Assembly: GCF_014193515.1 (NCBI RefSeq)
Contig: NZ_BLXX01000007.1
Coordinates: forward strand, 62,001 to 126,000
Reading direction: 5' to 3'
Length of the DNA: 64,000 nt
Origin: Geomonas silvestris
GTDB taxonomy: Bacteria; Desulfobacterota; Desulfuromonadia; Geobacterales; Geobacteraceae
Positions 49,959-50,675 of this stretch are shown here, piece by piece. Under the pieces are notes generated by a model. That model had not been told where the DNA came from and made no database searches. It worked only from the letters and a program-made list of their open reading frames with translations. How positions within the stretch are numbered: the first letter of the stretch is position 1; every line of letters begins with the position of its first letter. Made by a program: the position numbers and the translations under genes.

Positions 49959-49996
49959 AAAAAAGGAGCTGCCGGCCCACCGGCAACTCCTTTTTC
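49959..49996. terminator. terminator after the His-rich gene
   Basis: An AAAAAGGAG / CTCCTTTTT stem, a C-A mismatch, then TGCCGG / CCGGCA with a 4-base loop. It ends the minus-strand riboswitch transcript 24 bases after the stop codon and is symmetric enough to work both ways. Confidence 0.85.
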
Positions 49997-50019: not shown

Positions 50020-50307
50020 CTAGTCGTGCTTGCCGTGGTGCTTGCCGTGCCCCTCGCCCTCGTGCTTGCCGTGGTGCTTCGGCCCGTGCCCTTTCTCCTT
50101 GTGGTGGTGGCCGCGGTCCCGTTCCAGGTAGACGATCCTCCCCCCTTCACGGTAGCAGGGACGCCCCCCGACGTAGACCACCTGCACCCCTGCGGGAGCC
50201 GGCAGGTAGCCGTTGATGTTGACGCTGACAGCGGTGCCGGCATAGGCGCTGCCGGCGCTTAAGACCAAAGCTGCGACCGCCGCCAGACGGCCTGCTCGAT
50301 GTTTCAT
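50020..50307 (-). CDS. secreted His/Lys/Gly-rich small protein under riboswitch control
   Basis: A 95-residue protein. The signal peptide (about 1-23, ending GSAYA) is followed by a short folded-looking part (GTAVSVNINGYLPAPAGVQVVYVGG) and a C-terminal tail from about residue 65. The tail is made almost only of His, Lys, Gly and Glu, with 12 histidines in 30 residues. The tail suggests metal or heme binding in the periplasm or outside the cell. AAGGAGG precedes the ATG. It is the only gene between the GEMM riboswitch at 50.5-50.6 kb and the terminator at 49.96 kb. Confidence 0.8.
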   Translation of the reverse strand: MKHRAGRLAAVAALVLSAGSAYAGTAVSVNINGYLPAPAGVQVVYVGGRPCYREGGRIVYLERDRGHHHKEKGHGPKHHGKHEGEGHGKHHGKHD

Positions 50308-50510
50308 ACAACCTCCTTGAAAACCGGGAACCCCGGTCAGTTGCGGGACAAAAGCGGTTGTTCCGCCTCCCGGGAGAAAATGCGATAGATGGTACCTGGC
50401 CGGCTCTTTGCTGAGCTGCCGGAGGCGTGTTCAGGGACACCTGCCGGAAGAGCCCGTCGACCGGCGGCGGGTGGTGACACTACGACTTCGTTGCCTCCTT
50501 TTTGGCCACG

Positions 50511-50625
50511 AAAAAAGCCGGGGCCAAGATATCGGTTAGATATTTCGGCGACCCGGCTGTCTCGGTGAGACCCTGTAGGCTTTCCGTCCCATCCTCGCGG
50601 ATGGTTTAGTAGTATCGTTTATCTC
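50511..50625 (-). promoter_or_regulatory. GEMM-I riboswitch, cGAMP-type (GEMM-Ib), with terminator platform
   Basis: Minus-strand RNA. After a GATA P1 strand (50616-50613) come CTAAACCATC, a GCGA-type tetraloop, GATGGGACGGAAAGCC, then GGGTCTC / GAGAC and AGCCGGGTCGCCGAAATATC, the full GEMM-I layout. The segment before AAACC reads TACT rather than GGGC, placing A at the position equivalent to G20 of the Vc2 aptamer; this marks the 3',3'-cGAMP-binding variants known in Geobacter. The 3' aptamer strand AGCCGGG (50558-50552) also pairs with CCCGGCT (50522-50516), followed by TTTTTT, giving a mutually exclusive terminator. Ligand binding should free the gene, so an ON switch is inferred. Confidence 0.88.
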
Positions 50626-50646
50626 ACGCTTGTTGTACTGGCCGTC

Positions 50647-50675
50647 TTGATACCTTCCCCACGCCTTCCTGTCAA
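50647..50675 (-). promoter_or_regulatory. promoter of the riboswitch transcript
   Basis: Minus-strand TTGACA (50675-50670), a 17-base spacer and TATCAA (50652-50647). The expected start is near 50640, a few bases before the aptamer. Confidence 0.65.

Follow-up and report, generated by a model that had tools for sequence, protein, structure and literature searches.

The closest described relatives of the locus analysed here are the GEMM-Ib riboswitches pilM of G. metallireducens and pgcA/Gs1761 of G. sulfurreducens. In the excerpted text of PMC9262584, the pilM cGAMP riboswitch carries a G-U pair in its lower P2 (U15-G38), its aptamer and terminator exclude each other, and it acts as an ON switch whose terminator captures the ligand-pairing C75. 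The G20-equivalent position is described in the same excerpts as a selectivity factor and no hard filter. Excerpts of a second study (PMC6456294) tie cGAMP to growth on Fe(III) particles, give cytochromes and pili as the best-described targets of cGAMP riboswitches, other targets being filed as hypothetical genes, and report that the omcST riboswitch of G. sulfurreducens senses both c-di-GMP and cGAMP. Neither the class of riboswitch nor its ON mechanism nor the regulon is new.

In the window, i.e. the whole stretch of 64,000 nucleotides of DNA that was analysed, a GEMM-I aptamer precedes a gene for a small His-rich protein. We consider it likely that this GEMM-Ib-type riboswitch is a cGAMP-induced ON switch for this one gene; the encoded protein, for which export is predicted, would bind metal at the cell envelope. 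What is new is the conserved pairing of the two, and the uncharacterised protein family that it adds to the known regulon is the point of interest. In the literature covered, to which the 2015 founding papers (Nelson, Kellenberger) do not belong, we found no account of this family as a conserved cGAMP target or of its operon link with DUF4382 and hemerythrin, and no paper tying a histidine-rich protein or DUF4382 to the Geobacter cGAMP regulon. The excerpted text of one paper that treats both hemerythrin and a Geobacter riboswitch (PMC2996986) does not link the two.

The transcription unit and its conservation

The elements of the unit are all located on the minus strand and are collected in Table 1. 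An earlier note on this DNA had claimed a TTGACA-N17-TATCAA promoter, which is indeed present. Its hexamers match the consensus at 10 of 12 positions, a score that came up 10 times when the 80 nt upstream were shuffled 2000 times, and the pattern TTGACA-N17-TAT occurs three times in the window versus 0.06 expected. This promoter is absent from the list of a general promoter and terminator scan, which requires a T ending the second hexamer. Neither of the two minus-strand terminators is in that list, and the palindrome part 49970-49985 is listed on the plus strand only. Since the His-rich gene is followed by an inverted repeat and a T run, its transcript is probably monocistronic. The same note had proposed a single small exported protein behind the riboswitch, and one such ORF was found, its export being predicted from the signal peptide.

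Table 1. Elements of the transcription unit, with their positions in the window
Feature	Positions	Strand	Basis or detail
Sigma-70-type promoter	50647..50675	-	TTGACA 50675-50670, 17-nt spacer, TATCAA 50652-50647
GEMM-I aptamer	50544..50620	-	RF01051, 42.6 bits, cut-off 35
Intrinsic terminator hairpin and T run	50511..50558	-	5' arm is the aptamer 3' strand; computed fold
Leader, 203 nt, with AAGGAGG at 50318-50312	50308..50510	-	No promoter-like pair above shuffles
CDS, 95-aa predicted exported His/Lys-rich protein	50020..50307 (ATG 50307, stop 50020)	-	ORF
Inverted repeat then T run, likely terminator	49959..49990	-	Sequence

Searched directly with the protein, 48 genomes of the family yielded 31 matches, distributed over 26 of them. 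Three of these matches were dropped as spurious: L053, located inside a transporter-like ORF; L057, whose frame lacks the family core; and a match on G017:C10, which has two stops and no locus. Among the 28 homologs retained, in 25 genomes, 24 have a GEMM-I-type aptamer upstream, which agrees with the regulon membership claimed earlier. The homologs devoid of an aptamer are L031 and three second copies (L054 of this genome, L055 and L056); counted by genome, a riboswitch-linked copy is present in 24 of 25. An alignment search added three family genomes with weak matches (G008, G009 and G010) in which the stretch examined has no aptamer, and the count thereby becomes 24 of 28 genomes; it leaves out four weak matches, namely second matches in G010, G011, G013 and G016.

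The layout is conserved along with the pairing. All 24 linked loci have a TTGAC[A/T]-N16-18-TA[T/C] promoter ahead of the aptamer, and in all of them the minimum-energy fold contains a terminator hairpin built with the 3' strand of the aptamer. The best listed model at these loci is RF03167, at 41-50 bits and thus below its cut-off, overlapping clan matches being omitted; when the same loci are taken as named records, the aptamers preceding the gene score above the RF01051 cut-off, at 39.9-45.5 bits. GEMM-I matches were found in 48 of 48 family genomes, with at least 798 in total. Since this amounts to about 17 per genome, as a lower bound, chance adjacency to the His-rich gene would be rare; no p-value is attached to the pairing because the loci are related by descent. 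Relatives with a name come from Geomonas species, Citrifermentans bremense and a Geobacter MAG, among others, and an aptamer is located upstream on the gene's strand in 15 of the 27 named loci. As the homolog in 24 of these 27 is identical to one from the searched genomes, they provide names only and no independent counts.

Outside the window's family, the pairing is mostly absent. At the order level, the alignment search matched 60 of 141 genomes, 28 from the window's family and 32 from sister families. One stretch was examined from each of the 32 sister-family genomes and from G008, G009 and G010 (L116-L150). At the gathering threshold only, a GEMM-I on the strand of the gene precedes it in 3 of 32 sister-family loci (L122, L126 and L136) and in none of the three stretches from G008, G009 and G010, although GEMM-I is present somewhere in 34 of 34 genomes checked (two of them from the window's family). 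Since linkage is this scarce in genomes that do possess GEMM-I, riboswitch control is a trait of the window's family and not of the protein itself, whose own function does not depend on cGAMP control.

The His-rich protein and its neighbours

The 95-residue protein starts with an N-terminal signal peptide, recognized by eye, and continues through the core VNINGYLPAPAGV...GRPCYREGGRIVYLE into a His-rich tail. The core pattern of the family is VNINGYLPAPxGV...GRPxY, and seven residues (P36, P38, G40, G48, P50, Y52 and Y60) are invariant in 112 aligned members. A dN/dS of 0.10-0.13 was obtained for the window gene compared with its sister-species orthologue. The His-rich tail described earlier is real, but the count of about 12 His in 30 residues has to be corrected to 11 His in the last 33 residues. 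The family alignment matches 442 database proteins, with the window protein as a member, and in the best 120 of these 442, every protein that carries a name is annotated as 'hypothetical' or 'uncharacterized'. A single-sequence protein search returned nothing besides the window protein itself. Pfam and NCBIfam gave no match over cut-off for the family, whether to a known metal- or heme-binding family or to any other. Heme handling, which had also been suggested, was rejected as unsupported, the protein carrying no CxxCH heme-binding motif. Two AlphaFold runs gave models of low confidence (pLDDT 56 and 59) with a three-strand meander at residues 42-60, and a fold search of the PDB found 199 matches at E <= 10 but none at E <= 0.001; because of the low pLDDT and the lack of a significant match, no fold is claimed.

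Judging from its composition, binding of metal ions at the cell envelope is a probable role of the His-rich protein, a point that we hold less firmly. It is possible, if somewhat doubtful, that the tail acts instead as a polycationic anchor for polysaccharide, DNA or mineral surfaces and is no metal chelator, His being tolerated there and not selected for metal. Indeed, in the tails of the 112 members, Lys/Arg (median 0.32) exceeds His (13-35%, median 0.22), with Gly at 0.13, and the partners of the gene are surface-like, namely a DUF4382 lipoprotein, outer-membrane barrels and OmpA. On the other hand, His never falls below 0.13 of the tail in any of these members and accounts for one third of the window tail.

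The partners were examined in the linked loci. Genes for a DUF4382 lipoprotein and a hemerythrin come next in 15 of the 24, and a gene for an outer-membrane barrel stands between riboswitch and His-rich gene in two; none of these partners was found in seven, within flanks of 1.5 kb (less for L044). A Ysc84 gene is located further downstream in seven named loci, in five of which it is preceded by a second GEMM-I. No partner accompanies the His-rich gene of the window genome, where relatives of these genes are found elsewhere: DUF4382 (L025, 53% identity), hemerythrin (L018, 49%) and Ysc84 (L023, 74%), each 76-107 nt behind an A20 aptamer of its own. Two of these A20 GEMM-I units, driving the Ysc84 and DUF4382 genes, are only ~2.8 kb apart (G000:C9:117919-120782; L023 and L025); in Geomonas relatives, unlike here, both genes are clustered with the His-rich gene.

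A different neighbour, CL4, is a predicted exported protein of about 350 aa that has no Pfam match. Its gene is present in 22 of the 35 stretches, one of these matches being weak, and next to each of the three second copies, versus 0 of the 24 linked loci. For instance, the second His-rich copy of this genome (G000:C14:105396-105644; L054, L152) adjoins CL4 and has no riboswitch at the gathering threshold. In sister families, CL4 recurs beside members of the His-rich family, as seen at L101 (4410-5453) and 36 other loci, several of which represent the same genome twice. One or the other of two outer-membrane barrel queries was matched in 18 of the 35 stretches, in some only partially.

We tentatively suggest that this undescribed exported family of His/Lys-rich, metal- or mineral-binding proteins could constitute, with the DUF4382 lipoprotein and the bacteriohemerythrin, a surface module that is switched by cGAMP and serves growth on Fe(III) particles; this module would be split in the window genome, each part standing behind its own cGAMP-type riboswitch. 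The cGAMP programme for life on metal surfaces is likely to include this protein as a conserved component that has so far gone undescribed. Its place behind the switch in 24 of 28 family genomes makes it a strong candidate for a functional component of that way of life, and it is small enough for direct purification and testing. Its conserved partners (DUF4382 lipoprotein, hemerythrin and, in some loci, Ysc84) provide a concrete set of genes for joint study.

Ligand class and switching

A covariance-model search against Rfam corroborated the GEMM aptamer announced by the earlier note: RF01051 is the only match in the window at the gathering threshold (E 5.6e-5). In this aptamer, GAUA (50623-50620) pairs with UAUC in P1, C50609 and U50608 of the lower P2 are paired with GG, and a GCGA tetraloop is present. 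An A occupies position 50610, which we take to be the equivalent of Vc2 G20. This A and the G-U pair at the bottom of P2 (C-U with G-G) are both features of the GEMM-Ib/cGAMP subclass. Among 55 distinct aptamers from the analysed loci, where the aptamer of sister locus L029 is the same as that of the window and was counted together with it, the C-U/G-G arrangement is found in 48 of the 49 A20 aptamers versus 0 of the 6 G20 aptamers. The window aptamer is thereby predicted to be of GEMM-Ib type (cGAMP-class) and to bind 3',3'-cGAMP selectively.

The Rfam label of the aptamer is c-di-GMP-I, and the cGAMP assignment relies instead on the sequence features above. In a permissive search, c-di-GMP-I-GGC (RF03167) reached 43.5 bits, slightly above RF01051; membership in this family was rejected, as the score is far below its gathering score of 59. 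The same ranking is observed for A20 aptamers at window positions 50619-50543 and at 23 homolog loci, where RF03167 outranks RF01051 in the permissive search and yet stays below cut-off. Since both families are named for c-di-GMP, automatic annotation can give the wrong ligand.

The ligand choice had been deduced from the A at the G20-equivalent position. The A is there, but it does not fix the ligand by itself, given that excerpts of PMC9262584 treat this position as a selectivity factor and that a C is found at 50612, two bases before A20, where A is usual. This C, present in 2 of the 55 distinct aptamers, could alter ligand affinity. The only other aptamer that carries it is that of L122, and both are located upstream of His-rich homologs. 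The aptamer might instead respond mainly to c-di-GMP, or to both dinucleotides as reported for omcST (excerpts of PMC6456294), and the gene would then belong to the c-di-GMP network; the Rfam class is in line with this, and the rare C could weaken the preference for cGAMP. We regard this as unlikely, since the combination of A20 and C-U/G-G in the window aptamer recurs in 47 other A20 aptamers but in no G20 aptamer out of six, 22 of the 27 GEMM-I aptamers of this genome are A20 (the other 5 being G20), and a gene for a GacA-type synthase is present.

This gene, L076, was found in a survey of the GGDEF proteins of the genome, in which 30 of 34 matches were examined, 4 of the 30 having no readable motif. 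It is the only readable GGDEF with Ser in the Asp position (residue 344), and this Ser aligns with that of GmGacA 6d9m, the best-matching chain with 231 bits versus 150 for the next. L076 is thus a GacA-like Hypr GGDEF, predicted to be of the cGAMP-synthase type. No second synthase of the GSU1937 kind was found among the readable motifs of the 30 matches examined out of 34.

Other GEMM-I units of this genome precede proteins with 4 to 8 CxxCH motifs (first genes of L002, L003, L008 and L026) and fn3/Ig-type surface proteins (first genes of L015, L017, L020 and L022). A GEMM riboswitch ahead of fn3-protein genes was noted earlier in G. bemidjiensis, according to excerpts of PMC2996986. At G000:C6:214121-214569 (L009, L012 and L013), three tandem GEMM-I aptamers precede the gene of a Pro/Thr-repeat protein that has a single CxxCH.

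The minimum-energy fold (-44.9 kcal/mol, z = -3.2) was matched in stability by 1 of 200 shuffles. The terminator said to share the aptamer 3' strand was recovered in this computed fold, AGCCGGG and GCCGA being paired into the hairpin, and its 5' arm corresponds to the aptamer strand AGCCGGG..GCCGA..AUAUC. Since the hairpin takes this strand, aptamer and terminator are mutually exclusive. A terminator made from the aptamer 3' strand, seen here in computed folds, is a further feature of the GEMM-Ib/cGAMP type and the arrangement expected of an ON switch. ON action is also supported by analogy with the pilM riboswitch of G. metallireducens, as described in excerpts of PMC9262584. By analogy with G. 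sulfurreducens (excerpts of PMC6456294), cGAMP should switch the His-rich gene on.

In the mechanism that we propose, the terminator would, in ligand-free RNA, capture the aptamer 3' strand including the ligand-pairing C, and transcription would stop. During growth on Fe(III) particles, the GacA-type enzyme would make cGAMP, which would hold the aptamer fold and let RNA polymerase read through to the His-rich gene. Outside the inner membrane, the His/Lys-rich tail may then chelate transition metals or adhere to mineral or polymer surfaces, and the protein may have two other products of its regulon, the DUF4382 lipoprotein and the hemerythrin, as working partners; both of these last steps are put forward with less confidence.

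It is most improbable that a promoter in the leader, a possibility raised in the earlier note, drives the gene and leaves the riboswitch as a relic: although the window leader (about 204 nt from T run to start codon) is longer than in most directly linked relatives, it gave no promoter signal, its best promoter-like pair (7/12) being equalled by 489 of 500 shuffles, whereas the aptamer-terminator block is identical in sister locus L029, where the leader has diverged, and L037, with only about 35 nt from T run to start codon, leaves no room for a further promoter.

Comparison with described systems

Within its own protein family, which covers Geomonas, Citrifermentans and other Desulfuromonadales, the window copy is distinguished by a Cys where at least 90% of the 112 members have Tyr (GRPYY). 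Its aptamer belongs to the same clan as the c-di-GMP-I-GGC aptamers of RF03167 but falls below the cut-off of that family. The synthase candidate L076 shares with the GacA/Hypr GGDEF (6d9m, Gmet_1914) the Ser in place of Asp and matches it best by about 80 bits, although it has GGDEY where 6d9m has GGDEF. The pilM and pgcA riboswitches presumably carry an A at the G20 position, as the window aptamer does. According to excerpts of PMC9262584 and PMC6456294, the GEMM-Ib riboswitches pilM (G. metallireducens) and pgcA/Gs1761 (G. sulfurreducens) have in common with the window unit the aptamer class, the G-U pair at the bottom of P2, a terminator that captures the ligand-pairing C, and the ON logic. 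Compared with them, the window aptamer, whose cGAMP ligand is a prediction, has a rare C two bases before A20. The main difference resides in the target, which is a cytochrome or pilus operon for pilM and pgcA and a His-rich protein for the window riboswitch.
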